NCBI RefSeq assembly: GCF_036785885.1 | Contig: NC_092330.1 | Coordinates: 4,498,525-4,562,524, forward strand | Length of the DNA: 64,000 nt | Source: Coffea arabica | Taxonomy: Eukaryota > Streptophyta > Magnoliopsida > Gentianales > Rubiaceae | Direction: 5' to 3' | In this document: positions 1-47,446 of the stretch, piece by piece | Layout of the letters: each line of letters starts with the position of its first letter | Numbering within the stretch: position 1 is the stretch's first letter | Position numbers and translations under genes: made by a program | The notes under the pieces: generated by a model | Seen by the model: only the letters and a program-made list of their open reading frames with translations | Databases searched by the model: none | Told to the model about the DNA's origin: nothing

Positions 1-107
1 GGGTTCTAATGTTAAATCAAACTGGTGACCTTGTTGGTTCTTGGTTTCAGTCGAACCAACTAGTTTAGCTCAAATTTAATAACACTAGCTTCTTACCCTT
101 GCACTCT

Positions 108-665
108 CTTAGCTTTCTCATGATTTGGATTAAAGTGTCACAGTTAATTTATTCATTAAAACTAATGGTTAATAGTAAAAAGTCAAAATCAAACTAATAA
201 ATTGATAAATGTACCCTTGCACTACTTTTTTTCTTTTTTCCTTCTCTCTCTCTATCTCTGTCTCTCCCTCTCTCGAAAGAGAATATATGATTTTGAAAAC
301 TTATATTTTGGTCTATAAAGTTTTAATTTTCTCCAAATACAGAAGAGATGGAAGGAAAATAAATAATAAATAATAATCCAAAAAGATGGAAGAGAAATAT
401 AAAACTAATAAATAAGAAACAAAAAATGCCAAATATTTTTTGGCTATAAATATCATTATAGGTTTTTAAACCAAATCTTTAATGGCATTTTCTAATTCTT
501 TTTTATCTATTTTTTTCAATTTCTTCTTTTTTATGTTTGGAGGAAAAAAAAAGAAATAATGAAAGGATAAATTTGTCAATTTATTAGTTTGACTTTGATT
601 TTTTACTATTGAAAAATTAAAAGTAACACTTTAATTCAAACTATGAGAGAATTAATATAAACCAA
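108..665. repeat. Fold-back repeat (MITE-like), about 110 bp arms
   Basis: Sequence around 110-220 recurs as its reverse complement around 560-665. Matching blocks include GGATTAAAGTG against CACTTTAATTC and AATCAAACTAATAAATTG against CAATTTATTAGTTTGACT. The loop (about 221-560) is AT-rich and contains the CT tract. No coding potential is seen. Length and inverted arms fit a non-autonomous fold-back DNA element, but no clean target duplication was found, so the class is open. The rest of 1-756 holds nothing else recognisable. Confidence 0.55.
238..276. repeat. CT-rich microsatellite
   Basis: Imperfect CT/CTCTAT tract in the loop of the fold-back repeat. Simple sequence without other content. 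Confidence 0.7.
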
Positions 666-756
666 GGGGGTTTATGTAGTAAAGTATCAAATTACAGTGT
701 GGTAAAAGATAATTTATCAAAAATTTAACAACTAATACCTACGTGAATTGTTACAA

Positions 757-1148
757 TGTTATGAAATAATAATAAGATGTAGATGTCCATTGATATTCTC
801 TAGATGTGACTGTCCGTTGATATTCTCAAGAAGAATTACAAGATGAAAATGTCCATTTGTATTTTCAAGATAATAGTCACATGTATTCTCCCTAGATTCA
901 TTGGTACATTGGATGAACTCATTTATGGATGTACTTGATGTACTAAATTCATGTATTTGTATTTAATAGGGTTCATGTACCTTTGATCTTGGATCACCTA
1001 TATATAGGGGTGTATCCTACTTCATTTGTAACCTTGGAAACCTTGAAACCTAGAAGTATTTTGATCAGTAAATATAATAATTCTATCTCTCTCTTCTTCT
1101 CACTCTACTATTTCAATCCCTACGTTTTATTTTATTAGTTTTACAACA
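757..1148 (+). repeat. 5' LTR of copia composite (392 bp)
   Basis: Begins TGTTATGAAATAAT and ends ACAACA (TG...CA). It is preceded by the target repeat TACAA and followed directly by a primer-binding-like site. It lacks a 6 bp GGGAGT-type block near its 3' end; the inverted LTR at 3707-4098 lacks the same block, while most other copies keep it, which makes these two sister copies. Confidence 0.9.
998..1007 (+). promoter_or_regulatory. TATA box in copia 5' LTR
   Basis: CTATATATAG lies about 140 bp upstream of the LTR end and is followed by GGGGTGTATCC. The same core recurs in every LTR copy of the block, for example at 13162-13171. Expected to be the U3 core promoter with transcription starting a few tens of bases downstream; inferred from position. 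Confidence 0.6.
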
Positions 1149-1163
1149 CGTTATCAGCACGAG
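1149..1163 (+). other. Primer binding site of copia element
   Basis: The bases directly after the LTR, CGTTATCAGCACGAG, sit where the minus-strand primer tRNA pairs. The string is repeated downstream of each complete LTR copy (as reverse complement before 3707 and 8460). The primer tRNA was not identified here. Confidence 0.6.
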
Positions 1164-1321
1164 TCTCTACCTTGAATTAAGGAAAAGCACGAGTCTCTAC
1201 TTTGAGTGAAGGAAAGGCGCGAAGCAAAAGTGAAGCACGAGACGTATCAAGGTTCTGCCCGAACAACTTTTGACTACTTATCAAGGTAAAATTCTTTCCT
1301 ACGAATCTATTGCATAGTCTT

Positions 1322-2338
1322 ATGACTAATCTCACAAAACAAGAGTTCATACCTCTTGATATTTCTGGAAAAAATTATTTATCGTGGGTTTTGGATGTTG
1401 AAATTCATCCTGAGGCAATGGGTCTTGGCAATACTATTGTTGATGAGAATGATGCCTCAAACCAAGACTGTGCTAAGGCCATGATTTTCCTTCGTCGTCA
1501 TTTAGATGAAGGATTAAAAATGGAGTATCTTACAGTCAAAGATCCTCTTGTCCTTTGGCAAGATTTGAAAGAAAGATTCGACCACCTGAAGTTGATCGTT
1601 CTTCCAAAAGCCCGATATGATTGGCTTCACTTACGACTACAAGATTTCAAATCTGTCAACGAATATCATTCAGCTATGTTTAGAATTACTTCTCAATTAT
1701 CATTGTGTGGCGAAAAGGTCACTGATGAAAATATGTTAGAAAAAACATTCTCTATTTTTCATGTCTCTAATATGCTCCTGCAGCAGCAATATAGAGAGAA
1801 AGGATTTAAGAAATATTCTGAACTTATTGCATGTCTCCTCTTGGCTGAACAAAATAATGAATTATTGCTGAAAAATCACGAGTCCCGATCAACTGGTGCA
1901 AGTCCATTCCCTGAAGCGAATGCGACTCAATTTCAAAATTCTGTTCGAGGTCGTGGACGTGGACGTGGCCATAGAGGTGGCCGTGGATGTGGCCGTGGCC
2001 GTGGACGTGATCGTAGTAGATTTATGCCCCATGAAAATTATCACCGTAGCAAGCAACAAAATATTTCTCAAGAGAGAGAAAATGACTACAATCCGAAAGA
2101 AGGAGAAAAGAAAGTTTATGAAGAAAAATGCTACCGATGTGGTATGGAAGGTCACTGGTCCCGTACCTGTCGTACGGCTGAACATCTTGTTGACCTCTAT
2201 CAAGCATCATTGAAAAAGAAGGACAAAGATGTCGATACAAATTTTATCGACCAAAAGGATGCTTATAATGATGATGATGTTGACATGACACACCTGGATG
2301 TTGTCGATTTCTTTGAGCATCCTGAAGATGCAAAATGA
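1322..2338 (+). CDS. gag: Ty1/copia Gag polyprotein (retrotransposon nucleocapsid)
   Basis: A continuous reading frame of about 338 residues from the first ATG (1322) to TGA (2336-2338). The N-terminal two thirds is the copia-type Gag domain (UBN2/retrotran_gag-like), with motifs such as NYLSWVLDVE, HLDEGLKMEYLTVKDP, KARYDWLHLRLQDFKS and LLQQQYREKGF. A long RGRGRG/HRGGRG basic tract follows, then one CCHC zinc knuckle (CYRCGMEGHWSRTC) and an acidic C-terminus. Gag assembles the cytoplasmic particle and binds element RNA. This is the only uninterrupted gag of the three in the block. The frame stops before protease, and the homologous minus-strand copy stops at the same residues, so the separate gag frame is probably ancestral. 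Whether it is expressed is unknown. Confidence 0.88.
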   Translation: MTNLTKQEFIPLDISGKNYLSWVLDVEIHPEAMGLGNTIVDENDASNQDCAKAMIFLRRHLDEGLKMEYLTVKDPLVLWQDLKERFDHLKLIVLPKARYDWLHLRLQDFKSVNEYHSAMFRITSQLSLCGEKVTDENMLEKTFSIFHVSNMLLQQQYREKGFKKYSELIACLLLAEQNNELLLKNHESRSTGASPFPEANATQFQNSVRGRGRGRGHRGGRGCGRGRGRDRSRFMPHENYHRSKQQNISQERENDYNPKEGEKKVYEEKCYRCGMEGHWSRTCRTAEHLVDLYQASLKKKDKDVDTNFIDQKDAYNDDDVDMTHLDVVDFFEHPEDAK

Positions 2339-2475
2339 TCATATATTTAATATTTGTCTAGATGTTTGATATGTTGTTAGTTTTGCAGGATTGTCAATTA
2401 CTTTGGTATGTTGTTTGATATGTTATTAGTTTTATCAATTTACTTTGCATATGTCTATTCTCACATCTTTTATTA

Positions 2476-2802
2476 ATGTTTATTTATTTTCTTCCTAAAG
2501 AAGAAATGGATGTCAAATATTTGGGTCTATATAATGGTGATGATATCATTTGTCTCATTGATAGTGCTTCTACGCACACTATATTAAAAAATAAAAGATA
2601 TTTTTCTTCTTTGGAGATGGGAGAGACAAATATTAATACCATCAGTGGTAGTACAAAATTAATTGAGAGCTCCGGAAGAGCCACTCCATTTCTCCCTAAA
2701 GGAATTAAAATTGTCATAAATAATGTACTATTCTCTCCCAAGTCTCGAAAAAATTTATCCGTCGAAATAGATATCAAATTGAGACATTCTATGAGACAAT
2801 AA
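2476..2802 (+). pseudogene. Copia protease fragment (start of pol)
   Basis: The frame encodes YLGLYNGDDIICLIDSAST followed by HTILKNKRYFSSLE, aligning by eye with the retropepsin-like domain of copia pol, where DSG(A/T)TH is usual. Here the catalytic Asp is followed by Ser-Ala-Ser. The frame is lost at 2802, and about 70 bp later the element breaks off at the inversion junction (about 2872), so integrase and RT do not follow in this orientation. It is separated from gag by 137 bp without a good start codon context; those bases contain TTTTGCAG, which resembles a splice acceptor. Confidence 0.75.
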
Positions 2803-2872
2803 TAGAGATCATGTTTATAAATCAAGTGAAATAAAGGTTAATCATATCATAATAATCATTCGAGTGCGTAAC

Positions 2873-3533
2873 GGCCACCTCTATGGCCACATCCACGTCC
2901 ACGACCTCGAACAGAATTTTGAAATTGAGTCGCATTCGCTTCAGGGAATGGACTTGCACCAGTTGGTCGGGACTCGTGATTTTTCAGCAATAATTCATTA
3001 TTTTGTTCAGCCAAGAGGAGACATGCAATAAGTTCAGAATATTTCTTAAATCCTTTCTCTCTATATTGCTGCTGCAGGAGCATATTAGAGACATGAAAAA
3101 TAGAGAATGTTTTTTCTAACATATTTTCATCAGTGACCTTTTCGCCACACAATGATAATTGAGAAGTAATTCTAAACATAACTGAATGATATTCGTCGAC
3201 AGATTTGAAATCTTGTAGTTGTAAGTGAAGCCAATCATATCGGGCTTTTGGAAGAACGATCAACTTCAGGTGGTCGAATCTTTCTTTCAAATCTTGCCAA
3301 AGGACAAGAGGATCTTTGACTGTAAGATACTCCACTTTTAATCCTTCATCTAAATGACGACGAAGGAAAATCATGGCCTTAGCACAGTCTTGGTTTGAGC
3401 CATCATTCTCATCAATAATAGTATTGCCAAGACCCATTGTCTCAGGATGAATTTCAACATCCAAAACCCACGATAAATAATTTTTTCCAGAAATATCAAG
3501 AGGTATGAACTCTTGTTTTGTGAGATTAGCCAT
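2873..3533 (-). pseudogene. gag: Inverted partial copia gag (truncated 3')
   Basis: Minus-strand Gag domain nearly identical to the plus-strand gag at 1322 (MANLTKQEF through the start of the RGRG tract). It is cut within the Arg-Gly-rich region at about 2873, before the zinc knuckle. The open frame runs a few codons past the junction into foreign sequence. With its leader and LTR it forms the right arm of a palindrome with 757-1983. It differs from the plus copy at scattered positions (for example Glu-Thr for Glu-Ala in the HPE motif). Confidence 0.85.
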
Positions 3534-3706
3534 AAGACTATGCAATAGATTCGTAGGAAAGAATTTTACCTTGATAAGTAGTCAAAAGTTGTTCGGGCAG
3601 AACCTTGACACGTCTCGTGCTTCACTTTTACTTCGCGTCTTTCCTTCACTCAAAGTAGAGACTCGTGCTTTTCCTTAATTCAAGGTAGAGACTCGTGCTG
3701 ATAACG

Positions 3707-4098
3707 TGTTGTGAAACTATTAAAATAAAACGTAGGGATTGAAATAGTAGAGTGAGAAGAAGAGAGAGATAGAATTATTATATTTACTGATCAAAGTACT
3801 TCCAGGTTTCAAGGTTTCCAAAGTTATAAATGAAGTAGAATACACCCCTATATATAGGTGATTCAAGATCAAAGGTACATGAATCCTATTAAATACAAAT
3901 ACATGAATTTAGTACATCAAGTACATCCATAAATGAGTTCATCCAATGTACCAATGAATCTAGGGAGAATACATGTGACTATCATCTTGAAAATACAAAC
4001 GGACATCTTCATCTTGTAATCCTTCTTGAGAATATCAACGGACAGCCACATCTAGAGAATATCAATGGACATCCACATCTTATCATTATTTTATAACA
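3707..4098 (-). repeat. Inverted copia LTR, 392 bp
   Basis: Reverse-complement LTR: plus-strand reading starts TGTTGTGAAACT and ends TTATAACA. It is joined through its leader to the inverted gag at 2873-3533. Same length and same small deletion as the LTR at 757-1148. Confidence 0.9.
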
Positions 4099-4105
4099 AA
4101 AAAAA

Positions 4106-4456
4106 AACTCCCAAAAGTAGGGATTGGAATAGTAGAGCAAGAAAAAGAGAGAGATAGAATTATTATATTTACTGATCAAAGTACTTCCAGATTTCAAGGT
4201 TTCCAAAGTTACAAATGAAGTAGGATACACCCGTATATATAGGTGATCCAAGATCAAAAGTACATGAACCCTATTAAATACAAATACATGAATTTAGTAC
4301 ATCAAGTACATCCATAAATGAGTTCATCCAATGTACCAATGAATCTAGGGAGAATACATGTGTCTATCATCTCGAAAATACAAACGGACATCCACATCTT
4401 GTAATCCTTCTTGAGAATATCAATGGACATCCACATCTTATCATTATTTCATAACA
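4106..4456 (-). repeat. Partial inverted copia LTR
   Basis: A second LTR copy directly abuts the previous one. Its outer 20-25 bp are missing and replaced by an A-run (4099-4107), after which it is collinear with the family through to the CATAACA end. It is separated from the next complete LTR by a single C (4457), giving an LTR-LTR-LTR run without internal sequence. Confidence 0.85.
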
Positions 4457-4457
4457 C

Positions 4458-4864
4458 TGTTGTGAAACTAATAAAATAAACTCCCAACGTAGGGATTGAA
4501 ATAGTAGAGTGAGAAGAAGAGAGAGATAGAGTTATTATATCTACTGATCAAAGTACTTCCAAGTTTCAAGATTTCCAAGGTTTTCAAGGTTACAAATGAA
4601 GTAGGATACACCCCTATATATAGGTGATCCAAGATTAAAGGTACATGAACCCTATTAAATACAAATACATGAATTTAGTATATCAAGTACATCCATAAAT
4701 GAGTTCATCCAATGTACCAATGAATCTAGGGAGAATACATGTGACTATCATCTTGAAAATACAAACAGACATCTTCATCTTGTAATCCTTCTTGAGAATA
4801 TCAACGGATAGTCACATCTAGAGAATATCAATGGACATCCACACCTTATCATTATTTCATAACA
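4458..4864 (-). repeat. 3' LTR of inverted copia element B
   Basis: Complete LTR from TGTTGTGAAACT to CATAACA in plus-strand reading. The following bases (4865 onward) are the reverse complement of the element's 3' internal end; the polypurine tract is mutated (TTTTCC instead of CCCCC), so this is the 3' LTR of the minus-strand unit occupying 4458-8847. Confidence 0.88.
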
Positions 4865-5085
4865 CTTTTCCTTGGATGTCCATGACACAAAGAATATGCC
4901 TCGTTAAAATCTTACTAGGAAAAAATCCAGTGGGACAAAAACCCTAGTGAAGGAAAAAGAGTACACTATTCTTGTGTAATAAATTCTCCCCCTGATGCAA
5001 ACATTATATGAGATCTTTTAGCCGACGCATTCCAATGTCGTTTTGAAGGCGAGGAACTAAATCTTGCTAATAAATTCACAGCAAA

Positions 5086-6015
5086 TTATATATCTGGCCT
5101 TGTACAATTAGCAAGATACATAAGCGCACCAATTGCACTGAGATATGGTACTTCAGGACCAAGTATCTTTTCATGTTCCTCTTGTGGCCTAAAGGGATCC
5201 TTATAAGGATCTAATGATCTGATGACCATTGGGGTACTTAATATATGTGCTTTATCCATACGGAACCGCTTTAATACCTTCTGGGTATAAGCAGTTTGGT
5301 GAACAAAAATTTCACCTTCTAAATGCTCAATTTGTAAACCAATACAGAATTTTGTCTTTTCAAAATTTTTGATCTCAAATTCTTTCTTCAAATATTGGAC
5401 AGCCTTTTGGATCTCTTCAGGAGTTCCAATCAAATTGAGATCATCAACATATATTGTAATAATTACAAAATTTGACTCATTTTTCTTGATTAAAACACAT
5501 GAACATATTGGGTCATTGGTATAACCTTCTTTAGTTAAGCATTCATTGAGGCGGTTATACCACATACGTCCAGATTGTTTGAACCCATATAAAGACTTTT
5601 GTATTCTAATAGAATACACATCTCTAGGATTTGATTTACATGCTTCAGGTATGTTGAATCCTTCAGGGATTCTCATGTAAATATTATTGTCAAGATTCCT
5701 ATACAAATAAGCAGTGACAACGTCCATCAGACGCATATCAAGTTTTTCATGTACTGCAATACTCACAAGATATCTAAATGTGATCGTATCCACCACAGGT
5801 GAATACGTTTCATCATAATCAAATCAAGGCCTTTGTGAAAAGTCTTGAGTTACAAGTTTTGCTTTATATCTCACTATTTCATTTCTTTTCCTTACAAAAA
5901 CCCATTTATATCCAACTGACTTTACATCTTCAAGTGTTTGGACTACAGGTCCAAATACATTTCTTTTAGCTAGTGAATCAAATTCAGATTGTATCGGCCT
6001 TTTCATTTTGACCAA
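5086..6015 (-). pseudogene. pol: Copia reverse transcriptase of element B, RNase H deleted
   Basis: Minus-strand RT (RVT_2). It contains SVGYKWVFVRKRN, MDVVTAYLYRNLDNNIYMRI, IQKSLYGFKQSGRMWYNRL and the catalytic YVDD box (IYVDDLNLIGTPEEIQ), then LSAIGALMYLANCTRPDI. A Gly codon after SQRP has become TGA near 5824, splitting the frame. About 550 bp encoding the rest of RNase H is missing: the sequence jumps at about 5030-5040 from the CCGACGCAT end segment to CCAATGTCG, with CATxCCAAT similarity at the deletion ends. Upstream, 6016-6801 holds only degraded post-integrase linker. The copy cannot make a working polymerase. Confidence 0.87.
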
Positions 6016-6801
6016 TTATTACTATGCCGACATTCATCAACCGATCTAGATTCATGATTTTCATCAACTTCTATAATATTAAGTGCTATATTTCATTAGG
6101 CTCCAATTAACTTTTTTATAATTTCATTCTCTTTAGGAGTTGGCTCTTCTGGAGCTGGCTCTTCAGGAGCGACCTCTTCAGGAGGTTAAATTTTGTCATG
6201 ACATTTATTTAATCTCCGGAGATATTTGAAATCAATTTATACCTTATATAGGTAGGTCGGCCTTTATTTGTAGCACTTGTACATGTCCTTCAGGGACATC
6301 AATTTTAACAAGAATATTTTCTGCAGGAATAGTTGATTTAATAACTCTTCTGGTGTCGATAAATATAACTTTCTTCAAATGAAGAATTTCTTGAACTTCT
6401 AGTTCACGTTATTTTATATGAGAATCGAGAAAATCCAATTTTCAGATAATTTCCCTTCGGTTGATCATTTCCTCCCCCTAATGTCGGGAATCGTAGCTCA
6501 TCAGAAGAAATAAAGTTTTCGATAGATCACTCTTCGGGGTGATGCATCCTGACATAAATTTCTTTTGAAACTATGTATAATATAAAAGGGGTATGTATAA
6601 ATACTTGTCGACATTCAAATATTCTCACTTTTGTCAAATCATATATTTATTGGAATCAATAAACTTCTGGTTTACTGCAGGTGATGATTATAAAGCAAAT
6701 GAGAATGAAGATAACTATATCGATAACCATTACGCTCTCGAACGATTATTAAGATATAATTAACCTTTATCTCATTTGATTTCTAAACATGATCTCTATT
6801 A

Positions 6802-7104
6802 TTATCTCATAGAATATCTCAATTTGATATCCATTGTGACGGATATCTTTAATAAATTTCTTCGAGACTTGGGAGAGAGTAGTGTAATATTTATGACAAT
6901 TTTAGTTCCTTCAGGGAAAAATAGAGTGACTCTTCCGGAACCCTTAATTAATTTTGCACTACCACTGATGGTATTAACATTTGTCTCTCTCATCTCCAAA
7001 GAAGAAAAATATCTTTTATTTTTCAATATACTGTGCATAAAAGCACTACTAATGAGACAAATGTTATCATCACCATTATTTGATCCCAAATATTTGGCAT
7101 TCAT
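6802..7104 (-). pseudogene. Copia protease fragment of element B
   Basis: Homologue of the plus-strand frame at 2476-2802 (YLGSNNGDDNICLISSAFMH, KNKRYFSSLEMRETN). The catalytic Asp of the DSx motif is replaced by Ser (ISSA), so the protease is dead. It is followed by a non-coding remnant (about 6460-6740) where integrase would be expected. Confidence 0.75.
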
Positions 7105-7277
7105 TTCTTCTTCAGGAAGAAAATAAATGAAACTAAATATTGATAAAAGATACGAGAATAGACATTAGCAAAGTAAATTGATAAAGCTAACAACATATCA
7201 AACAACATACCAAAGTAATTGACAATCTTGCAAAACTAACAACATATCAAATATCTAGACAAATATTAAATATATGA

Positions 7278-8294
7278 TCATTTTGCATCTTCAGGATGTT
7301 CAAAGAAATCGGCAACATCTAGGTGTGTCATGTCAGCATCATCATCATCATAAGCATCCTTTTGGTCGATAAAATTTGTTTCGACATGTTTGTCCTTCTT
7401 TTTCAATGATGCTTGATAGAGGTCAACAAGATGTTCAGCCGTACGACAGGTACGGGACCAATGACCTTCCATACCACATTGGTAGCATTTTTCTTCATAA
7501 ACTTTCTTTTCTCCTTCTTTCGGATAGTAGTCATTTTCTCTCTCTTGAGAAATATTTTGTTGCTTGCTACGGCGATAATTTTCACGGGGCATAAATCTAC
7601 TACGATCACGTTCACGGTCACGGCCTCTTCCACGGCCACCTCTATGGCCACGTCAACGTCTACGACCTCGAACAAAATTTTGAAATTGAGTCGCATTCGC
7701 TTCAGGGAATGAACTTGCACCAGTTGGTCGGGACTCGTGATTTTTCAGCAATAATTCATTATTTTGTTCAGCCAAGAGGAGACATGCAATAAGTTCAGAA
7801 TATTTCTTAAATCCTTTCTCTCTATATTGCTGCTGCAGGAGCATATTAGAGACATGAAAAATAGAGAATGTTTTTTCTAACATATTTTCATCAGTGACCT
7901 TTTCGCCACACAATGATAATTGAGAAGTAATTCTAAACATAGCTGAATGATATTCGTCGACAGATTTGAAATCTTGTAGTCGTAAGTGGAGCCAATCATA
8001 TCGGGCTTTTGGAAAAATGACCAACTTCAGGTGATCGAATCTTTCTTTCAAATCTCGCCAAAGGACAAGAGGATCTTTGACAGTAAGATATTCTACTTTT
8101 AATCCTTCATCTAAATGACGACGAAGAAAAATCATGGCCTTAGCACGGTCTTGGTTTGAGGCATCATTCTCATCAACAATGGTATTACCAAGACCCATTG
8201 CCTCAAGATGAATTTCAATATCCAATACCCACGATAAATAATTTTTTTCAGAAATATTAAGAGGTACGAACTCTTGTTTTGTGAGATTAGCCAT
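7278..8294 (-). pseudogene. gag: Copia gag of element B with one in-frame stop
   Basis: Full-length Gag homologue from MANLTKQEF (ATG at 8294) to the same C-terminal HPEDAK and stop as the plus copy. The zinc knuckle CYQCGMEGHWSRTC is intact. A CGT/CGA-type codon in the Arg-Gly tract has become TGA near 7650, separating the domain from the knuckle. It has more substitutions relative to the other two gag copies than those have to each other. Confidence 0.87.
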
Positions 8295-8459
8295 AAGAAT
8301 ATGTAATAGATATGTAGGAAAAAATTTTAAGTAGTCAAAAGTTGTTCGGGCAGAATCTTGACATGTCTCGTGCTTCACTTTTGCTTCGCTCCTTTCCTTC
8401 ACTCAAAGTAGAGACTCGTACTTTTCCTTAACTCAAGGGAGAGACTCGTGTTGATAACG

Positions 8460-8847
8460 TGTTGTGAAACTAATAAAATACACCACTAACGAAGGGATTG
8501 GAATAGTAGAGTCAGAAGAAGAGAGAGATAGAATTATTATATTTACTGATCAAAATACTTCCAGGTTTCAAGGTTACAAATGAAGTAGGATACACCCCTA
8601 TATATAGGTGATCCAAGATCAAAGGTACATGAACCCTATTAAATACAAATACATGCATTTAGTACATCAAATACATCCATAAATGAGTTCATCCAATGTA
8701 CCAATGAATCTAGGGAGAATACATGTGACTATCATCTTGAGAATACCAATCGACATCTTCATCTTGTAATCCTTCTTGAGAATATCAGCGGACAGCCACA
8801 TCTAGAGAATATCAATGGACATCCACATCTTATCATTATTTCATAAC
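8460..8847 (-). repeat. 5' LTR of inverted copia element B
   Basis: In plus-strand reading it runs TGTTGTGAAAC to CATAAC and is preceded by the reverse-complement primer site and leader. It pairs with the LTR at 4458-4864 to bound unit B (about 4.4 kb). Confidence 0.87.
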
Positions 8848-8861
8848 GTGTTGTGATAACG
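8848..8861. other. LTR-LTR junction with primer-site remnant
   Basis: Between two tandem LTRs the minus strand reads CACAACACGTTAT twice before GAAATAATG. CACAACA is the LTR end and CGTTAT the first bases of the primer site, while GTTATGAAAT is also the LTR start. The junction therefore looks like a fusion of LTR-primer site to LTR start through the shared GTTAT, followed by a 13 bp duplication. Confidence 0.75.
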
Positions 8862-9249
8862 TGTTGTGAAACTAATAAAATAAACTCCCAACGTAGGGAT
8901 TGAAATAGTAGAGTGAGAAGAAGAGATATTATATTTTTTGATCAAAGTACTTCCAAGTTTCAAGGTTTTCAAGGTTACAAATGAAGTAAGATATACCCCT
9001 ATATATAGGTGATCCAAGATCAAAGGTACATGAACCCTATTAAATACAAATACATGAATTTAGTACATTAAGTGCATCCATAAATGAGTTCATCCAATGT
9101 ATCAATGAATCTAGGGAGAATACATGTGACTATCATCTTGAAAATACAAACGGACATTTTCATCTTGTAATCCTTCTTGAGAATATTAACGGACAGCCAC
9201 ATCTAGAGAATATCAATGGACATCCACATCTTATCATTATTTCATAACA
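8862..9249 (-). repeat. Inverted copia LTR (3' LTR of unit C)
   Basis: Complete LTR with a small internal deletion, followed in plus reading by CTCCCCCTTGGATGTCC, the reverse complement of an intact polypurine tract. It is therefore the 3' LTR of the minus-strand RT-RNase H segment at 9508-11012. Confidence 0.87.
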
Positions 9250-9258
9250 CTCCCCCTT

Positions 9259-9462
9259 GGATGTCCATTACACAAAGAATATGCCTCGTTAAAATCTTAC
9301 TAGGAAAAAATTCAGTGGGACAAAAACCTTAGTGAAGGAAAAAGAATATGCCTCAGTGGGACAAAAACCTTAGTGAAGGATGTCCATTACACAAAGAATA
9401 TGCCTCGTTAAAATCTTACTAGGAAAAAATTCAGTGGGACAAAAACCTTAGTGAAGGAAAAA
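9259..9462. repeat. 119 bp tandem duplication next to polypurine tract
   Basis: GGATGTCCATTACACAAAG occurs at 9259 and again at 9378, with the following TATGCCTCGTTAAAATC and CAGTGGGACAAAAACC repeated. A shorter duplication of the CAGTGGGACAAAAACC block lies inside the first unit. It is present only in unit C, so it arose after the copies diverged. Confidence 0.8.
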
Positions 9463-9507
9463 GAGTACACTATTCTTGTGTAATAAATTCTCCCCCTGAA
9501 GCAAACA

Positions 9508-11012
9508 CTATATGAGATTTTTTAACCGACGCATACCAATATTTTTCACCAGTTTCCCAAACGTAGCAGTCGGCAAATCCTTGGTAAACAAATCTGCCAA
9601 ATTATTATCCGATCGGATTTGTAGCACATCAATCTCACCATTCTTCTGCAAATCATGAGTAAAGAAGAATTTGCGTGAAATGTGTTTCGTCATATCTCCC
9701 TTAATATATCCTCCTTTTAATTGAGTTATACAAGCTGCATTATTTTCATATAAAATAATTGGAGGAATTTTCTTCTCGAATGATAACCCACAACTTTTTC
9801 GGATGTAGTGGGTCATTGATTTTAGCCAAATGCATTCTCGACTGGCTTCATGAATTGCTATTATTTCAGCATGATTTGATGAAGTGGCAGTTAAGCAATG
9901 TTTTGTAGAACGCCAAGAAATGGCTGTTCCGCCACAAGTAAAGAAATAGCCAGTCTGAGATTGTGCTTTATGTGGGTCAAACAAATACCCAGCATCAGCA
10001 TATCCAAGCAACTCAGGTTTAGATTTATTTGAATAAAACAAACCAAGATCAATTATTCCTTGGAGATAGCGAAAAATGTGTTTAATGCCATTCCAATGTT
10101 GTTTTGTAGGCGATGAACTGAATCTTGCTAATAAATTCACAGCAAATGATATATCTGGCCTTGTACAATTAGCAAGATACATAAGTGCACTAATTGCACT
10201 GAGATATGGTACTTCAGGACCAAGTATCTTTTCATGTTCCTCTTGTGGCCTAAAGGGATCCTTATAAGGATCCAATGATCTGACGACCATTGGGGTACTT
10301 CATGTATGTGTTTTATCCATACGGAACCGCTTTAATACCTTTTAGGTATAAGCAGTTTGGTGAACAAAAATTTCACCTTATAAATGCTCAATTTGTAAAC
10401 CAAGACAGAATTTTGTCTTTCCAAAATTTTTGATCTCAAATTCTTTCTTCGAATATTGGACAGCCTTTTGGATCTCTTCAGGAGTTCCAATCGAATTGAG
10501 ATCATCAACATATATCGCAATAATCACAAAATTTGACCCATTTTCTTGATTAAAACACATGGACATATTGGATCATTGGTATAACCTTCTTTAGTTAAGC
10601 ATTCATTGAGGCGGTTATACCATATACGTCCAGATTGTTTGAACCCATACAAAGACTTTTGTATTCTAATAGAATATGCATCTCTAGAATTTGATTTACA
10701 TGCTTCAGGCATGTTGAATCCTTCAGGGATTCTCATGTAAATATTATTGTCAAGATTCCCATACAAATAAACAATGACAACGTCCATTAGACGCATATCA
10801 AGTTTTTCATGCACTGCAATACTCACAAGATATCTAAATGTGATCGTATCCACTACAGGTGAATACGTTTCATCATAATCAAATCCAGGCCTTTGTGAAA
10901 AGCCTTGGGCTACAAGTCTTGCTTTATATCTTACTATTTCATTCTTTTCATTTTGGCCAATCATTTCTATGCCGACATTCATCAACCGATCTATATTCAT
11001 GATCCTCATCAA
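9508..11012 (-). pseudogene. pol: Copia RT-RNase H of unit C (frameshifted)
   Basis: Minus-strand RVT_2 with RPGFDYDETYSPVVDTITF, MDVVIVYLYGNLDNN, SLYGFKQSGRIWYNRL and the YVDD box, followed by copia RNase H (ISWRSTKHCLTATSSNHAE, GDMTKHISRKFFFTHDL, LADLFTKDLP). A 1 bp loss in the T-run near 10543 shifts the frame, and a TAA at about 10342 replaces the Gln codon of the TQKVLKR motif. Upstream (about 11013-11412) lies a Pro/Glu-rich linker with stops, reaching the inversion junction near 11412. RNase H is the best preserved in the block. Confidence 0.87.
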
Positions 11013-11412
11013 CTTTTATAATATCAAGTGCTACATTTTATTAGGCTCTAATTAACTTTTCTATAATTTCATTCTCTTCAGGAGTTGGCTCTTCGGGAGC
11101 TGGCTTTTCGGGAGCTGACTCTTCAGGAGCGACCTCTTCAGGAGGTTAAATTTTGTCATGACATTTATTTAATCTCCGGAGATATTTGAAATCAATATAT
11201 ACCTTATATAGGTAGGCCAGCCTTTATTTGTAGCACTTGTACATGTCCTTCAGGGATATCAATTTTAACAAGAGTATTTCCTGCAAGAATAGTTGATTTA
11301 ATAACTCTTCTGGAGTCGGTAACTTTCTTCAAATGAAGAATTTCTTGAACTTCTAGTTCACATTAGTTTATACGAGGATCGAGGAATCCAATTTTCAGAT
11401 GATTTCCTTTCG

Positions 11413-12780
11413 GATGAAACGTATTCACCTGTAGTGGATACGATCATGTTTAGATATCTTGTGAGTATTGCAGTGCATGAAAAACTTAATATACGTCTGA
11501 TGGACGTTGTCACTGCTTATTTGTATGGGAATCTTGAAAATAATATTTACATGAAAATCTTTGAAGGATTCAACATGCCTGAAGCATGTAAATCAAATCC
11601 TAGAGATGTGTATTCTATTAGAATACAAAAGTCCTTGTATGGGCTCAAGCAATTTGGACGTATGTGGTATAACCGCCTCAATGAATGTTTAACTAAAGAA
11701 GGTTATACCAATGACCCAATATGTCCATGTGTTTTTATCAAAAAAAATGGGTCAAATTTTGTGATTATTGCTATATATGTTGATGATTTCAATTTGATTG
11801 GAACTCCTGAAGAGATCCAAAAGGCTGTCCAATATTTGAAGAAAGAATTTGAGATCAAAGATTTTGGAAAGACAAAATTCTGTCTTGATTTACAAATTTG
11901 AGCATTTAGAAGGTAAATTTTTTTTCACCAAACTGCTTATACCCAAAAGGTATTAAAGCGGTTCCGTATGGATAAAACACATACATTAAGTACCCTAATG
12001 GTTATCAGATCATTGGATACTTATAAGGATCCCTTTAGGCCACAAGAGGAACATGAAGAGATACTTGATCCTGAAATACCATATCTCAGTGCAATTAGTG
12101 CGCTTATGTATCTTGCTAATTGTACAAGGCCAGATATATCATTTGCTGTGAATTTATTAACAAGATTCAGTTTCTCGCCTACAAAACGACATTGGAATGG
12201 CATTAAACACATTTTTCGCTATCTCCAAGGAACAATTGATCTTGGTTTGTTTTATTCAAATAAATCTAAACCTGAGTTGCTTGGATATGCTGATGCTGGA
12301 TATTTGTCTGACCCATATAAAGCACGATCTCAAACTGGCTATCTCTTTACTTGTGACAGAACAGCCATTTCTTGACGTTCTACAAAACAATCCTTAACTG
12401 CCACTTCATCAAATCATGCTGAAATAATAGCAATTTATGAAGTCAGTCGAGAATGCATTTGGTTAAGATCAATGACCCACTACATCCGGAAGAGTTGTGG
12501 GTTATCCTCCGAGAAGAAAATTCTTCCAACTATTTTATATGAAGATAATGCAGCTTGTATAGGTCAATTAAAATGAGGATATATTAAGGGAGATAGGACG
12601 AAACACATTTCACCGAAATTCTTCTTTACTCATGATTTGTAGAAGGATGGTGAGATTGATGTGTTACAAATCCGATCGGATAATAATTTGGCAGATTTGT
12701 TTACCAAGGCTTTGCCGACTGCTACGTTTGGGAAACTGGTGAAGAATATTGGTATGTGTCGGTTAAAAGATCTCATATAA
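11413..12780 (+). pseudogene. pol: Copia RT-RNase H, plus-strand 3' part of composite
   Basis: Plus-strand pol begins abruptly at DETYSPVVD (11413), exactly where homology with the minus-strand RT meets the inversion junction. It includes MDVVTAYLYGNLENN, the YVDD box, LANCTRPDISFAVNLL and the RNase H end LFTKALPTATFG, finishing with TAA (12778-12780). Damage: an extra T after LQI near 11898 shifts frame, a Trp-to-TGA change lies at 12373-12375, and further stops follow. Fingers and integrase are missing. Confidence 0.87.
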
Positions 12781-12910
12781 TGTTTGCATCAAGGGGAGAA
12801 TTTATTACACAAAAATAGTGTACTCTTTTTCCTTCACTAGGGTTTTTGTCCCACTGGATTTTTCCCTAGTAAGGTTTTAACAAGGCATATTCTTTGTGTA
12901 ATAGACATCC

Positions 12911-12919
12911 AAGGGGGAG
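12911..12919 (+). other. Polypurine tract of copia element
   Basis: AAGGGGGAG immediately precedes the 3' LTR (TGTTATG at 12920), the expected plus-strand primer position. Confidence 0.8.
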
Positions 12920-13319
12920 TGTTATGAAATAATGATAAGATATGGATGTCCATTGGTATTCTCTAGATGTGGCTGTCCGTTGATATTCTCAAGAAGGATT
13001 ACAAGATGAAGATGTCCATTTGTATTCTCAAGATGATAGTTATATGTATTCTTCCTAGATTCATTGGTACATTGGATGAACTCATTTATGGATGTATTTG
13101 ATGTACTAAATTCATGTATTTGTATTTAATAGGGTTCATGTACATTTTGATCTTGGATCACCTATATATAGGGGTGTATCCTACTTCATTTGTAACCTTG
13201 GAAACCTTGGAAACCTGGAAGTACTTTGATCGGTAAATATAATAATTCTATCTCTCTTTTCTTCTCACTCTACTATTTCAATCCTTACGTTGGGAATTTA
13301 TTTTATTAGTTTCACAACA
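12920..13319 (+). repeat. 3' LTR of copia composite (400 bp)
   Basis: TGTTATG to CACAACA, followed by TACAA (13320-13324), the duplicate of the bases before the 5' LTR. It contains the TATA core CTATATATAG at 13162-13171. Confidence 0.9.
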
Positions 13320-13479
13320 TACAATGCATTTTAACATGTTATACTTGGACCGGCTGATCAAGAGGATTGCAGATGAATTGGCACAAAGTTGAACATATCA
13401 AACTGGCTAGTGTTGGCAAAATAAACTACACTAGAAGTTTCAATCAATTATTGTCATTAAATTATCTAGATTGAATAGA

Positions 13480-13800
13480 CGATATAAACCAAAGTATTGA
13501 CTACGAACGTTAGAAATTTTAATTTGGGGATAAAAATTATGATATCCTTGTATTTAGTGGTTTATTGAGAAATAATGTTTAAAAGGTAAGAAATTAAGTG
13601 GAGGATTTAAAGATGGAAAATATATTCTAAGGAAGGCTAAGAAAAAAAGGATTTTCAAATCCATTGCTTACCTAAAGTATCTAGTGGGACCACTAATTAC
13701 CGTAGAAGTTTTAATAAACACCTAACTAAATGGATAAACACCTAACTAAATTGATAATCTTAAATGGAATACTATGAGTATATAAAAGGAAGAAATAGAA
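13480..13800. repeat. Dispersed repeat, first copy (pair at 28463-28720)
   Basis: CCAAAGTATTGACTACGAAC, AAATTAAGTGGAGGATTTAA and TAGAAGTTTTA blocks recur in the same order and orientation at 28463-28720. No coding potential. 13325-13479 and 13801-14557 hold no recognised feature; weak short ORFs there look random. Confidence 0.7.
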
Positions 13801-14557
13801 TGATCATACGAAAAAGTAAAAGCACTCCCTTCATTCTTGTTCTTCTATTAGCATAGTTGACAAATTATCCTATAATAATTTGGTAATTGACAGACGAGTG
13901 TTATAAACTTTGTACCGGAATGTTGGAGTAGAGCTGGAGAAAATACGTCTCGCAATTTGCGGAGAATTTGGTGATTTAACAGCACTTGGGTGTGAATAGA
14001 TCTTGTTGAAAAAAGTCTCCTAATCTACCCTTTCAATTTGGCAACTTGAAGATTTAACACTACTTGGAGGCTTGAGGAACTTGAGCAACGCGTAACAAAC
14101 TGTGCTAAATTTCAGGACTTGTGGATCAAAAAAAGTAGAACGATTGTAAAATTTCAAGAACTTGAACCTTTGATAATGATGTGATGTAGAGCTCCAAATA
14201 GGCCTATCAGTTGGACCATCTAAGTTGAATTTTAATAAATTCAAATTTGACTCATATATAGTTAGTACATTTTTGAATTAATGGAGTGGAGCAACAAAGC
14301 CTCCTTGCCCATACTAACGCTTTTAGACAAGCTAATGGTTCCGCTTGAACTGCAGATTCCACAAAATTACAAACATTTTATTTAGTGAGTTTGTGTATTA
14401 CCTGACCATGAGAATTTAAAACTACGAAACCAATACTACCACTCATCAACTGAGCATCAAATGACCCATTTGTGACAATAGTGATGCAATGTGTTTATTT
14501 GGATATGTAATTATTAATTATATATACCAAAGTATATATGTATTATATATATATATA

Positions 14558-15930
14558 TGACAGGTGTCGAACCTGTTCAAAAATAAAGAACCTAATTGCC
14601 ACCAAAAAGTCTAATGAATTATTAAATTGAGTACAATGGCAAGCAGGGTCGTTTCCTCAGGGACCGAAGAAAATTCGCTCCTTTTCAAGTCAAAGAGAAA
14701 CGGGGGTTTTGAGAATTAAATGCTAACGAATTATTAACCAAATTAATCAACTGTGAAAATTAATTAAGAGAGACAAATAATGGGAAAAACTCTAGCTAAG
14801 GATACACTTCAGAAGTGGTTCAGGTAACTAATCATTGATGCAGTTATAATTTCAACATTCATTAATAAACAGGTTTTAACTGCCGATACGATCTGACAAT
14901 CAATTCCTCCATACTGTTTCGATAGTCAAGGTACGACCATTAACTATTTTCCTAATTTAGGAATAACCCTAGGTATGACTTTAGAATTTAATTCCTCAAT
15001 TGCATTAGAAATTAGAGAAATCCTGTTCTAATCAATAAAAACGCTAGGAGGGTTTATTTAAATTAGATCGTGCGTTTTCCTGACACAAATCTAATTATGT
15101 CAGTTGCTACCGGGATTAGAGTAGTCAAACAATTACGGATCCAACTATTCTAATTAGCAAATATATTATGTGAATAATTAAATATTGCGTACCTATTTAA
15201 TCATACACAATAATCTTAACCTATAAAAGCAGAAATCTTGCAAATACCAATAAGTAGAAGAAACAAATAAAATCAGTTAGATCTCATAGTGATAGCTGAA
15301 CCAAATCTGCAGTTGTCCCTTGACTAGAGAATACGAAATTAGTTTTCCATTAATAGAGAACAAGCCACGCAAGAAGAATCTGTTGGAAGCTTACAATCCT
15401 TGTTTTTCTTAATTGTCGCCGAAGAAAAAAACTAAGTCTTTTCCTCCTAAAACGAAAGCCTTCCGCCACCCTAAATCTCCTTTCTTCGCGGCCCTCTCCC
15501 AAAGGAATGAGAGCCCCTCATGATCTAGAATCCAAGTCTATTAGAACTTTTCTAATCTGTAATCTAACAGATTTCCTAATAACAAATATCACCAAAAAAA
15601 ATATTTTAGTTTCTGATAGTACTCAACTACTAAATAGAAAAGGGCAATAAGTATTCCAGCATAGCCACGGACTTGAAATCCACAATTCTTTGGAAACTGT
15701 CCACGTGCGCGTGAGATCCCAACAATCCAGTTTTGGAAATATGACTGGAGCGCGCCCAGGTCTAACTGTCAAACGGTCTTTACGAAGGTTGATTTTCAGC
15801 ACCTTTTTTCACCAATTTCTGCAAGTAGCACCAAACACAAAACCTAAGTAGAATCCACCAAATGGCGCAGTATTTAGCCCGAACAATTAGGAAATATTAA
15901 TGAAATAACCCACTAAAATGTACCCTATCA
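14558..15930 (-). mobile_element. Solo LTR of a gypsy/LARD-like element (1.37 kb)
   Basis: The block starts TGACAGGTGTCG and ends TACCCTATCA, i.e. TG...CA on either strand, and lies inside an (AT)n tract, so ATATA-type flanks exist on both sides. On the minus strand it starts TGATAGGGTACATTTTAG, and near its 3' end it has the GTCCCTGAGG-type segment typical of LARD/Tat-Athila LTR ends. No internal region or second LTR is present, so it is a solo LTR left by LTR-LTR recombination. There are no ORFs of note. Confidence 0.65.
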
Positions 15931-28462: not shown

Positions 28463-29075
28463 TCCAAACCAAAGTATTGACTACGAACATTAGCATTTTT
28501 GAAATTAGGTTTAAAAGGTTTCGAAATAAGGTTTAAAAGGTAATAAATTAAGTGGAGGATTTAAAGACAGAAAATATGGTCTTAAGAAGGTTAAGAAAAG
28601 AAGGATTTTGAAATCAATGACTTACCTAATTAAGTATCTAGTGGAAACACTAATCACCATAGAAGTTTTACTAAGCAACTAATTAAATGGATAGTACAAA
28701 ATGAAATTTTATCATTGATTGAAAAGAAGAAATAGGATGATAGAAAAATTAAAAAGAAATTGATAAAATTTGAAAAGTAATAACCATAAGTGAGGCAAAT
28801 TATAAGGGTACAAAAATAGAAAAAATTTAAAGAATTTTAGAAACCCTAAGAATCTAGCATTGCAAGGAGAAACAAAAAATAAAATTAGAGAATTTATTGA
28901 AAGTAATGGGAAAAACATATGAAAATATCTTTAGTTCAGGAAATTCAAGATAAGCTAAAATTTGCATAGCTCATATTTAAAGTTATAATTGGTCAACATT
29001 TAGAAAAATCTTCTTTGTCAAATTTGAAACAATCGGCACATTTCTTAATGAACACATCTATTTAAAAAATTAGTA
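28463..29075. repeat. Dispersed repeats shared with 13480-13800 and 55848-56195
   Basis: The left part (28463-28720) is collinear with 13480-13800. The right part (28725-29075: GAAGAAATAG(G/A)ATGATAGAAA, TTTTGAAAAGTAAT, TAATTGGTCAACAT, TTCTTTGTCAAATT) is collinear with 55848-56195. The three loci together suggest one longer repeat of which pieces survive. Confidence 0.75.
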
Positions 29076-43313: not shown

Positions 43314-46300
43314 CTATAGAAATTTTCTATGAAAATTAGGAAAATCTAAAGTGTCCATGATAATCTCCCCACGGACAATAGCCGGCAAAGAACGAAAATC
43401 ATCAAAAACATCATCTTGCTTCGAATTTGCGCCAAGGTTAGCTAGATAATCAGCGCGTTTGTTCGTCTTTCTATAACAATGGGTTATCTCACGGAAATGA
43501 TGCTTAAAACTGAGCAATTCATCCACTTCATGTTGCAGTCTCCAAGGGCAACCATATGTCCCTTGGAGTATTTACACCAAGACAAGTGAGTCAAATTCAA
43601 CATGCAAGTCTTGTAAGTCTCGAGCAATACAAAACCGCACCCTAAAGAGTATGGCCTTGAGATCCGAGTGTAAACTGGTCAATAACCCAAAAAAACAGGA
43701 ATAACAGACAATAAATCTCCCTTCCCCATCTCGCACAACTCCCCCACCCCCACTAACTCCTGGGTTCCCTTTTGCACAGCCATCCGAATTCAACTTATAC
43801 CTTGCCCTAGGAGCCGACTATGTAATTGGTAAAATAGAAACCCCTTCTTTTCAGAGCTACAAACGAAGAGTGAAGAACATCCCAAGAGACAAAAGAACAT
43901 GTTATTTCCGGAAAATTACAATGTAGTAAATCACATAACTGTTAAAATACCTGATCTGCCACCTCCGTCCACCCCACCTTCCTTCCATCAAACAGTCCCC
44001 TGTTTCTCACTTTCCATAACCCCAGCAGACGAGCATAGATAATGTATGATAAATGAACTTGAGATACACGTTGTGCCCCTTACGCAGCCACCACTGTAAC
44101 ATCACATGTTTTAACATGGACACCATATCCAAATCTCCCAGGACACCCTCAAATATATTCTAGACTGGTTTAGCTAAATCTCCTGTCAAAAATATGTGAT
44201 TAACCTCGTCATCTGCTGGCTCAGAACAACAATGACACTTAGACGGACCCTATACCCCAAATCTACGTAGCAGATTCATTAGAGGAAGACGCAAACGTAG
44301 CAACCATAACATAAAGAAAGAGATTTTGATAGGAAACCCCTTCAGCCACACATGCGAAACCACCCAAGAATAATTAGAAGCTTGCGAAACAAGCGTGTAA
44401 GTCGAAGAAATCGAGAATGAACTATTCTGCGTTAAAGCCCACACCATCCTATCAGAGCTATGAGTGGATGAAAGGGAAATCTTCACAACTTGCCTAAACA
44501 ACTCAGACTCTAAAACTTGATTAAGGAGCCGCATATTCCATTGCGCTTGAAAGACAAAATCTGACACAACATGCTCATGAAAAATTTTCACCTGATGACA
44601 TATAGCCCCAGTTCCCATCTAATTGTCATGTCAGAAATCCATCGATCCCACACTGATGACCTAGCAAATATGCTCATCTACCAACTGTTGAATCGAACAT
44701 AACCTCTTCCAAGTGTAAGAAAGCGAATAGCTCTCTTCTGCCAAACAAGGGTGCACCCTTCTACTATATTTTGCTATTAAAAATTCAACCCATAGGGATT
44801 TCCTTTGCCGAAAGTTCTACCAAAGCTTGATGAAAAAAGCATCATATACTTTCGTCAAATTACAAACTCCAATCCCACCCTCCTGATGTGGGCGACACAA
44901 CTTCCCCCAACTTAACCAATAAAATTGCTAGCCCATAACGTCGAGCTCCACAAAAAATTTGTCATCACTCTTTCTACGGAAGCAATGACTCCCTTCGGAA
45001 GAGATGCAGCTGCTAACAAGTGGATTGGCATTGAAGACAGAACACTCTTTAACAGCACAATCTTGCCCCCCAAATGAGAGGACCTGATTCTTCCATGATA
45101 GGATTTTGGTTGTTACCATGACGCAGAGTTTAGCAAAATAATGCATCCGCCTTCTTCCAACATAAAGGGGCAGCCAAGATATTGATTGGAAAATATTTGT
45201 ACGAGAAGCCGGTTACCATTCCAATCATCGTACGTCATTGCAAAGACAAGGTGAGATGCACCAAATAACAACTCTTCTGACAATTAATACGCTGTCCGAA
45301 AAATGCACAGTATCAATCGACTTCTTCTTTGACCAATGTTATTGAAGCTTTAAGGCCGCTAGTTAAAATGATTACGTCATCTGCATAGTCCAAATGTGTG
45401 ACCATAGAACAGCCTTTAGGGACTTTGAATGGTCTGAATTTTCGATGCTCCGCCAGTGCATTGAGTGAACGGGACAAGACCTCTGCACTAATAACGAACA
45501 AGGCTGGCGAAATTGGGTCATCTTGTCTCACAGCCCGTGAGGACTTAAAGAAACCGTGGGGCAAGCCATTGACAATGACAGAAAACCAAACATTTGATAT
45601 CAGTCTCCATATCATATCGATCCAAATTTCACTAAACCCAAATCGACGAAGCACTTGTATCAAAAACAACCAAGACACTCTATCATATGCCTTCATCATA
45701 TCCAACTTGAGCATCACATTCCCTCCCCTATTAGGTTTTTTAATATCATTCAACAATTCTTGTGCTAATAGAAAATTATCCGCCATTTGTCTGCCTTGCA
45801 CAAAATCACTCTGCTGCGGTGAGATAATGTGAGGAAGAACCTTTGCCAACCGGCAAGATAAAATCTTGGAGATGACCTTATTGATAAAATTGCATAAATT
45901 TATCGGGTGATATTGAGTGAAATCTTAAGGGCATTGTATCTTCAATAAAACAATTAAAGTAGCTGAGATACTTCTTGGCAACGTTGCACCACAAAAGAAA
46001 CTGACAATAGCCCTTTGAACATCCTTAGCGACCATCTCCCAAGTAGACATGAAAAATTTTTCTGTAAAACCATCCGGACCTGTAGCACTCTCCTCGTCCA
46101 TTGAAAAATTACTTCCTTTACTTCCTGCATGGATGGAACCTCAATCAACATCTCATTATCCTGCTCAGTGATCAACTTTGGAATAATGTCTAGCATGTTA
46201 TTTGAGGACTGTTCTCTCTCATTTGTAAACAATTCTTGGAAGAACGAGACAGCCTCATTATAAATACTTGACTCATCAGTCACCTAGTCACCATTTGTCT

Positions 46301-47446
46301 TCCTAATTTTATGAATCACTGACTTGCTTATTTTCTCTGTCATCACAGCGTGAAAAAATTTCGTATTTTTGTCCTTATCTGATAGCCATTTGACACGAGC
46401 CTTCTGCCTCCAGAATTCTTCCTCAATCACCAGAGTATGCTTCAATCTTGCACGTGCCTCTTGTACAGCCACCAACGACCTTTCTGACGGATGGTTATCA
46501 TGATCTATTTCAGCTTCCAGCACCCTCTGTTCTGCTGTCTGAATCGCCAAGAAGATGTCACCAACAGATTCCCTTGACCATAGTCTTAGTGCCTATTTAA
46601 CCCGTCGCAGTTTTGCCAACAAAACCTGAAGGGGGGAACTAGGGGAGGAAATAGACCAACTCTCCTTAATCACATCTATAAAACCTGGTTTTGTGGTCCA
46701 AATATTTAGGAATCTGAATGACCGTGGCTTGTCATCTAATCTCGTTGATGCCGATATCAAAAGAGGAGCATGATCAGAAGGGTCTCTCCCCAAGTGCTGC
46801 ACTAAAATATTATTCTCCATAAGCATATCAGCTGAGTTGAGCAAAAGCCTGTCTAGCCGCTTCCAAACTCTTAAAATACCCTGCCGATTGTTACACCATA
46901 TGTACCTAGACCCAGAGAACCTAGCATCCCCAACTTCCGCCAATGACATAAACTGTGATAATTCTATTCCTTGAATATGTCTAAAAGGTAGGCCACCCCT
47001 TTTTTCCTCTGCATTTAAGATAACATTAATGTCCTTTACAAGAAACCCTGGTTTTATCTCCGGCTTGTCATTCAACAACTCGATCCATAAACCTTCCCTC
47101 TCCTGGACGGTGCACTTCGAATGAATAAATGAAAAGTAGACCCCTTAGCCAATAATTGGAATCGGAGGCTTAAAGTGAGATGTTGATCCGACTCACCTAT
47201 CGTTTGGCAATCAATGAAAGATTTATAAAGCACCCAAATGCTACCCCACAGGTTTGCAATAGAAAAATCCATCCCCACCTTCATCCGAATCATATCCATG
47301 TTTGCAATCGAGGTCTTAGGTTCACAAATCGCTACCAAAGAGATAGAGTGCATTTTAACTAATTTACGGAATCTCTTAAGATTAGGGGCACGTGAGACAC
47401 CCCGAATGTTTCGAAAGAGAAAGTTAATCATTAGACAACATTGCAA
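43314..47446 (-). pseudogene. LINE ORF2: endonuclease, reverse transcriptase, RNase H (degenerate)
   Basis: Order on the minus strand: APE-like endonuclease (FRNIRGVSRAPNLKRFRKL, 47446-46593, ending SDHAPLLI); a linker with WLSDKDKNTKFFHAVMT (46550-46284); RT with SDFVQGRQMADNFLLAQELL, MLKLDMMKAYDRVSW and the YADD box (HLDYADDVIIL) at 45849-45313; zf-RVT region (44618-44250); and RNase H (43793-43314) with NSDGCAKGNPGVSGGGGVVR and CYRKTNKRADYLANLG. Many stops and shifts separate the pieces, so the element cannot move itself. Confidence 0.87.

Follow-up and report, generated by a model that had tools for sequence, protein, structure and literature searches.

The stretch of Coffea arabica DNA analysed here, referred to as the window, is 64,000 nucleotides long (C21:4498525-4562524, in a 45.8 Mb contig), and the assembly searched together with it comprises 1.198 Gb in 131 contigs. 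At the left end of the window lies a composite of Copia retrotransposon copies (757-13319), in which self-comparison confirmed a plus-minus-plus order and delimited seven long terminal repeats (LTRs), named A5, D5, X, B3, B5, C3 and A3 from left to right. An earlier note on this DNA had recognized the order of the strands and six of these LTRs, all of which are present, and had overlooked the seventh, X (4099-4456, minus strand). The features of the composite are the following.

752-756: left target site duplication TACAA, directly outside the TG...CA LTR end
757-1148, plus: LTR A5, outer left (392 bp); like D5, it has a 6-bp deletion close to the 3' end
1149-2874, plus: left half of a Copia element, with a primer-binding-site-like start CGTTATCA, gag with zinc knuckle and the start of pol
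1061-1984, plus: putative gene-conversion tract, with its partner at 2871-3794 on the minus strand
2871-2874: strand switch 1, 4-nt overlap ACGG
2871-3706, minus: D, 5' internal part (gag) of a Copia element
3707-4098, minus: LTR D5
4099-4456, minus: LTR X, the extra one, assigned by its sequence to a different lineage; it has an internal gap of 27 bp, lacks at least 13 bases at its 3' end and abuts D5
4457, minus: 1-nt spacer of the LTR-LTR joint between B3 and X, in sense CAACA-G-TGTTATG
4458-4864, minus: LTR B3
4865-8459, minus: B, internal region of the only LTR-to-LTR copy, with RVT_2; ~550 bp absent after the reverse transcriptase part
8460-8847, minus: LTR B5, with seven private transversions
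8848-8861, minus: 14-nt spacer of the LTR-LTR joint between C3 and B5; its start in element sense is CGTTATCA, as after the 5' LTRs of the family
8862-9249, minus: LTR C3
9250-11412, minus: C, 3' half of a Copia element, with RVT_2 and an 87-bp internal duplication
11412-11414: strand switch 2, ~1-nt overlap
11413-12919, plus: right half of a Copia element, from the reverse transcriptase (RVT_2) to a polypurine-like CCAAGGGGGAG
12920-13319, plus: LTR A3, outer right
13320-13324: right target site duplication TACAA, directly outside the TG...CA LTR end

The composite carries both a Copia-type reverse transcriptase and gag. RVT_2 was found in three of ten scanned open reading frames (E-values 4.6e-33, 7.7e-39 and 5.4e-31), with the region from gag-protease to reverse transcriptase, variable among the forms of the family, lying outside this set; zf-CCHC was found in two of the ten, Pol_BBD in the left half, and Retrotran_gag_2 at an E-value of 2.1e-4, below its curated cut-off. 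In pairwise comparison the copies within the locus differ by ~4-7% in their LTR, gag and reverse transcriptase stretches. The deletion in B lies at 5028-5036 with a 9-bp overlap, and in short external copies on contigs C9 and C13 a deletion starts at the same place and ends earlier. The duplication in C is perfect (9259-9345 and 9378-9464) and is located in its 3' part, adjoining its LTR. Family members occur in a short form of ~4.3-4.5 kb and a long form of ~5.6-5.75 kb, which are distinguished by the part that separates gag from reverse transcriptase; a mixed 4.8-kb form on contig C4 has the architecture nearest to that of the composite.

A genome similarity search located a counterpart of the left flank on contig C22 (C22:14928382-14929076 corresponds to window 1-659 with 90% identity, and C22:14929466-14929528 to window 694-756 with 92%). 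In a 2-kb stretch of this paralogous locus (C22:14929300-14931300) the left flank passes directly into the right flank, which is ~96.5% identical to window 13320-13912 (595 bp) and 14097-15284 (1,190 bp), and a single TAGAA stands where the window carries TACAA twice; no LTR match was found in the 2-kb stretch, which is thus an empty site. Since the paralogue has the same flanks, one target copy and no element, the whole 12.56-kb composite occupies one target site, and TACAA at its two outer ends marks one integration unit, as proposed in the earlier note. Two random 5-mers drawn from 40 kb of the window agree with p ~0.0017, and all nine external copies in which both outer LTR ends could be read have a 5-bp repeat at those ends; TG...CA LTRs and a 5-bp target duplication, as in Ty1/Copia, are both present here. 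The similarity of the right flanks on C21 and C22 is in itself a sign of recent duplication or of related subgenomes. The left flank contains a MITE-like dispersed element (window 110-730, inverted ends 171-242 and 541-610, 86%) with many genome matches at ~77-84%, and just to the right of the composite a dispersed repeat (13569-13736) is 85% identical to 28523-28693, 15 kb further on.

The family is abundant, with 519 candidate LTR places of which the best 40 were scored, and several independent nested insertions might have been expected to build such a locus. Nesting is disfavoured because no LTR stands at the strand switches and no matching 5-mer partners were found at the inner LTR ends; furthermore, the 1-nt gap between B3 and X leaves no space for a 5-bp duplication. 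Simple nesting, already held insufficient in the earlier note, was therefore rejected, and we regard a series of independent insertions as highly improbable.

Inside the composite, LTRs are joined directly to LTRs. In element sense, the joint between B3 and X reads CAACA at the end of B3, then G, then TGTTATG at the start of X; the joint between C3 and B5 reads CAACA, then CGTTATCACAACAC, then B5 from GTTATG; and X, without at least 13 bases of its own end, touches D5. Since mostly CGTTATCAGCACGAG follows the 5' LTRs of the family and mostly CCAAGGGGGAG precedes its complete 3' LTRs, the spacers look like leftover bases of what we take to be the primer site and the polypurine site, named by position with no tRNA matched. 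As in end-joining of the 2-LTR type, the LTR tips lie within a few nucleotides of each other with primer-site bases trimmed or kept, here in the 1-nt and 14-nt joints and the CGTTATCA remnant. An exact pattern for such joints gave two matches in the assembly, both in the composite (with the 1-nt and the 14-nt spacer); as its letters are carried by only 22/26 external LTR starts and 27/52 external LTR ends, it detects ~44% of such joints. Exact head-to-head and tail-to-tail patterns had no match in the assembly. A relaxed pattern yielded 21 matches, one of them the joint between B3 and X, against 16 for a reversed control; no family LTR was found around the five best-looking others (on C11, C5, C4:68209380, C3 and C1), and the remaining 15 were assessed from the letters matched, with no look at their surroundings.

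The LTR X belongs, on the basis of its sequence, to another LTR lineage. It is separated by 7-8 transversions from five close LTRs of the locus (A5, A3, B3, C3 and D5) and by 14 from B5, and by only 3 from an LTR on another contig (C3:10051725), with which it groups at 99/94 in the IQ-TREE likelihood tree; forcing all seven LTRs of the locus into one clade lowers lnL by 24.5 (p 0.096). Both the joints and X bear on growth in situ, in which one element would have acquired tandem units by unequal or illegitimate LTR recombination, the route suggested for tandem LTR arrays and for Cassandra, followed by deletions and an inversion. Tandem LTR-retrotransposons are common in plants, some with one 5-nt duplication, according to two reports (PMC11899658, PMC7215508). 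Nevertheless, such growth would leave one LTR shared between units, whereas here two or three LTRs stand back to back, 0-14 nt apart, and one of them is of another lineage; repeated deletions stopping within a few nucleotides of LTR tips would also be needed, and this origin appears improbable to us.

Apart from X, the LTRs of the composite are close to one another and of similar age. All 10 pairs among the five close LTRs are 0-2 transversions apart (~390 bp), and each of the five is at least 5 transversions away from every one of 51 external LTRs, five of the 56 external pieces having been left out at 295 bp or less; the external copies are a sample, the best 40 scored of 519, 390, 577, 587, 592 and 569 candidates in the respective searches. 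B5 is 6-8 transversions from these five. In gap-free columns the private substitutions amount to 9 in A3, 8 in C3, 7 in B5 and 6 in each of D5, A5 and B3, and the seven informative columns are in mutual conflict, in a star pattern. This informative fraction, 7/50, was reached by 0/3,000 random six-LTR sets; likewise, the largest distance was as low in none of the sets, and the mean distance in 18 of them. The sets were drawn from 15 external elements, after dropping LTRs below 370 bp and extra LTRs per element, and form a lenient control with distant subfamilies included. External LTR pairs, 17 in number, differ by 0-8.07%. By transversions, the LTR pairs of the locus (0.74%, or 0.21% when B5 is left out) seem to have diverged more recently than the flanks on C21 and C22 (1.2%, 21/1,781), and the similar private counts together with the 0-2 transversions among five LTRs would fit copies born together.

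Both strand switches lie in coding sequence, with no LTR at either. As stated in the earlier note, the minus block ends inside coding sequence rather than at LTRs; the ends were placed here at 2871-2874 and 11412-11414. Plus and minus halves overlap by ACGG at the first switch and by ~1 base, at 11413, at the second, and both joints look like end-joining products. Autointegration was considered and not adopted, since the chemistry of integrase would be expected to put an LTR end at every joint. Searched with up to 2 mismatches, the 23-nt joint at switch 1 has a single place in the genome, as has the 26-nt joint at switch 2 with up to 3. An assembly artefact fusing similar copies would have to accommodate this uniqueness, outer repeats that match an empty paralogous site, and the distance between the copies of the locus, of which even the closest arms are 2.4% apart when a hairpin read artefact is expected to give near-identical arms; we consider it very improbable.

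These closest arms, 757-1984 and 2871-4098, form a palindrome and are the most similar long pair in the locus, being 97.6% alike and gap-free, with differences at 30/1,228 sites, 28 of which are transitions. The differences between the copies A and D are unevenly distributed (17 of 392 LTR sites against 13 of 836 internal sites; Fisher p 0.005), while those between A and B are even (18/382 and 40/828; p 1). Over 1061-1984 there are 15/924 differences to the partner 2871-3794 versus 45/916 to B, and the 6-bp deletion is common to A5 and D5 with A3, B5, B3 and C3 lacking it. Later gene conversion over approximately 1061-1984, a tract whose edges were picked after viewing the data, would be the simplest account. 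The other palindrome, 9378-10874 and 11413-12910, is 93.7% alike and has no such excess similarity.

The external copy nearest in architecture (C4:10022-10027 kb) served to map how complete the halves are. On it, the left half from 757 stops at C4 10024447 and the minus half from 11412 begins at 10024723, so that 275 bp are absent between them. For the minus half with its end at 2871 the match runs to 10023536, and the right plus half starts at 10025303, a gap of 1,766 bp. With such gaps, the proposal of the earlier note that inverting 2873-11412 would restore three complete head-to-tail elements fails, and we rejected it. The alternative pairing, of plus with plus and minus with minus, lacks 855 and 1,186 bp, and since both pairings lose the same total, completeness gives re-inversion no preference. 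Likelihood tree tests of how the halves pair by LTR similarity rejected none of A5 with A3 (p 0.40), A5 with C3 (p 0.44) and A5 with D5 (p 0.45).

We hypothesize, with a confidence only somewhat above even, that the locus arose by one integration of LTR-to-LTR-joined cDNA copies, the middle of which was inverted before or after integration, and that gene conversion followed. In such a history, one retrotransposition event would have set several cDNA copies of the Copia family at the single TACAA site. The cDNAs of closely related sources, together with an LTR-sized piece of the other lineage, may have been end-joined extrachromosomally, in the manner of 2-LTR circles: C3 with B5, part of the primer-binding-site sequence staying between them; B3 with X, an extra G lying at the joint; and X with D5. 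The outermost LTR ends would then have been integrated normally, giving the 5-bp duplication. Two breaks in coding sequence, rejoined by microhomology with a total loss of ~2 kb, would have inverted the middle 8.5 kb, either in the cDNA chain or in the chromosome, and the arms of the left palindrome may later have exchanged sequence by gene conversion. We infer that joining preceded integration and that the middle block owes its orientation to inversion and not to insertion. More tentatively, and with clearly less confidence, the composite may have been assembled entirely before integration, whole and broken cDNAs in both orientations and the LTR-sized intermediate X being ligated by host end-joining into a 12.6-kb chain whose outer LTR ends were used by integrase as those of a single element. 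The earlier note had suggested either an inversion in a tandem array or a concatemeric or rearranged cDNA; from these suggestions the single integration unit is retained and copies of joint birth fit the LTR data, and the three complete head-to-tail elements are lost.

Several observations weigh against one integration of jointly born copies with an inverted middle. Because both pairings lose the same total, an inversion is not proved in preference to a minus block inserted into a plus element, and the pair of LTRs that inversion requires, D5 with A3, is near rejection (p 0.07), unlike A5 with C3. In the reverse transcriptase, 6-8 transversions separate copies within the locus versus 5 to the nearest external copy, and in gag there are 7 between A and B and 8 between D and B versus 5-7 to the nearest external copy (hits covering less than 600 bp were dropped from both trees). 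In the 3' piece, for which loci spanning less than 700 or more than 1,700 bp were dropped, B and C are sisters (94/95) with A3 apart, as A3 also is in the FastTree tree of the reverse transcriptase; a single clade for the 3' piece had p 0.389, short of rejection, and was recovered in 28% of the bootstrap trees. B5 carries its 7 private transversions and contains a 9-bp unit in a different number of copies from B3, which is odd for the LTRs of one copy. In the IQ-TREE likelihood tree A3 and B5 join external LTRs in a polytomy, which leaves a clade of six LTRs unsupported, and just one alignment column comes close to being diagnostic for the six. Holding the six LTRs without X as a clade gives lnL 1.4 lower (p 0.435) and is neither rejected nor demonstrated; FastTree grouped the six together, a result that carries no weight because IQ-TREE disagrees. 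Further LTR-LTR joints could have escaped the exact pattern search. Finally, the mean LTR divergence counting all changes, 5.2%, exceeds the flank divergence to C22, 3.3% (58/1,781), a difference that fits only with faster transitions in the element. Transitions make up the bulk of the LTR changes, and a transition excess is expected in methylated repeats.

The main rival explanation assumes a single plus element at TACAA, in whose pol region a double-strand break, arising in the same cell or at a later time, was repaired by capture of a minus-strand cDNA chain C-B-X-D, with ~0.86 kb of the target element lost. Capture would account for the ends in coding sequence, the microhomology and the LTR-LTR joints without any inversion, with the same number of junctions and the same total loss as the history that we favour, and it agrees with the clustering of B and C apart from A3. 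End-joining of Ty1 cDNA into breaks in yeast is described in one report (PMC10802722). Two insertions of copies of similar age would be required, the outer LTRs having 6 and 9 private substitutions and the inner ones 6, 6, 7 and 8; the exclusively shared LTR states (none for A5 with A3, one for A5 with C3, none for D5 with A3) lend thin support either way. We consider capture unlikely and retain one integration of a joined and inverted chain as our working account.

Elsewhere in the window, LINE-like remnants are found on the minus strand at 45313-49226 (open frames with RVT_1 and DUF4283) and on the plus strand at 58099-63597 (open frames with DUF4283, zf-CCHC_4, zf-RVT and RVT_3). The window also contains a UDP-glycosyltransferase and a pectin methylesterase inhibitor domain, which, like the type of the composite's element, would suit a plant.

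Homologous recombination between cDNAs is the model for the Ty1 multimers of yeast, which resemble the composite as multi-copy Copia-type insertions tied to cDNA. In yeast cells lacking SGS1, Ty1 multimers are transposed (PMC4378997). In plants, the joints of 2-LTR circles are attributed to end-joining of full-length linear cDNA (PMC10959353); those circles are extrachromosomal, whereas in the composite such joints lie inside a chromosomal insertion. Tandem arrays of the Cassandra TRIM elements are likewise tandem plant retroelements, with concatenated cDNA among their proposed sources, but they consist of short elements in which LTR and internal domain alternate and LTRs are not back to back, and no inversion is noted in the available part of their description (PMC7215508).

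The closest parallel is offered by the tandem LTR-retrotransposons known from rice and further plants (TLI1, TLI2 and the IDENTAM set), which, according to a 2025 survey, are common, some with one target duplication and with units sharing LTRs; two loci given close study there were read as linked to a single insertion, and more complex arrays were filtered out of the rice set (PMC11899658). Like them, the composite holds several family units inside one target duplication. In contrast to their shared internal LTRs and regular alternation of LTR and internal region, it has LTR-to-LTR units, a foreign LTR and a reversed middle: its units are not in one orientation, and adjacent units do not share one LTR, the LTRs standing back to back at B3-X-D5 and at C3-B5. 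Array searches that demand shared LTRs or a single orientation would be expected to overlook it. No description of a chain joined LTR to LTR and inverted in its middle was found in the literature searched, most subscription papers lying outside that search. Because of its joints, its empty paralogous site and a palindrome with apparent conversion, the locus is testable in related genomes and in extrachromosomal DNA. The composite appears to be an unusual form of a known tandem insertion, combining known elements (tandem insertion, 2-LTR joints and cDNA multimers) in a form not met in the literature searched. The 2025 survey leaves open whether tandem insertions originate by post-insertion recombination or from ready-made tandems (PMC11899658), and the joints described here are more easily explained by the insertion of a ready-made tandem.

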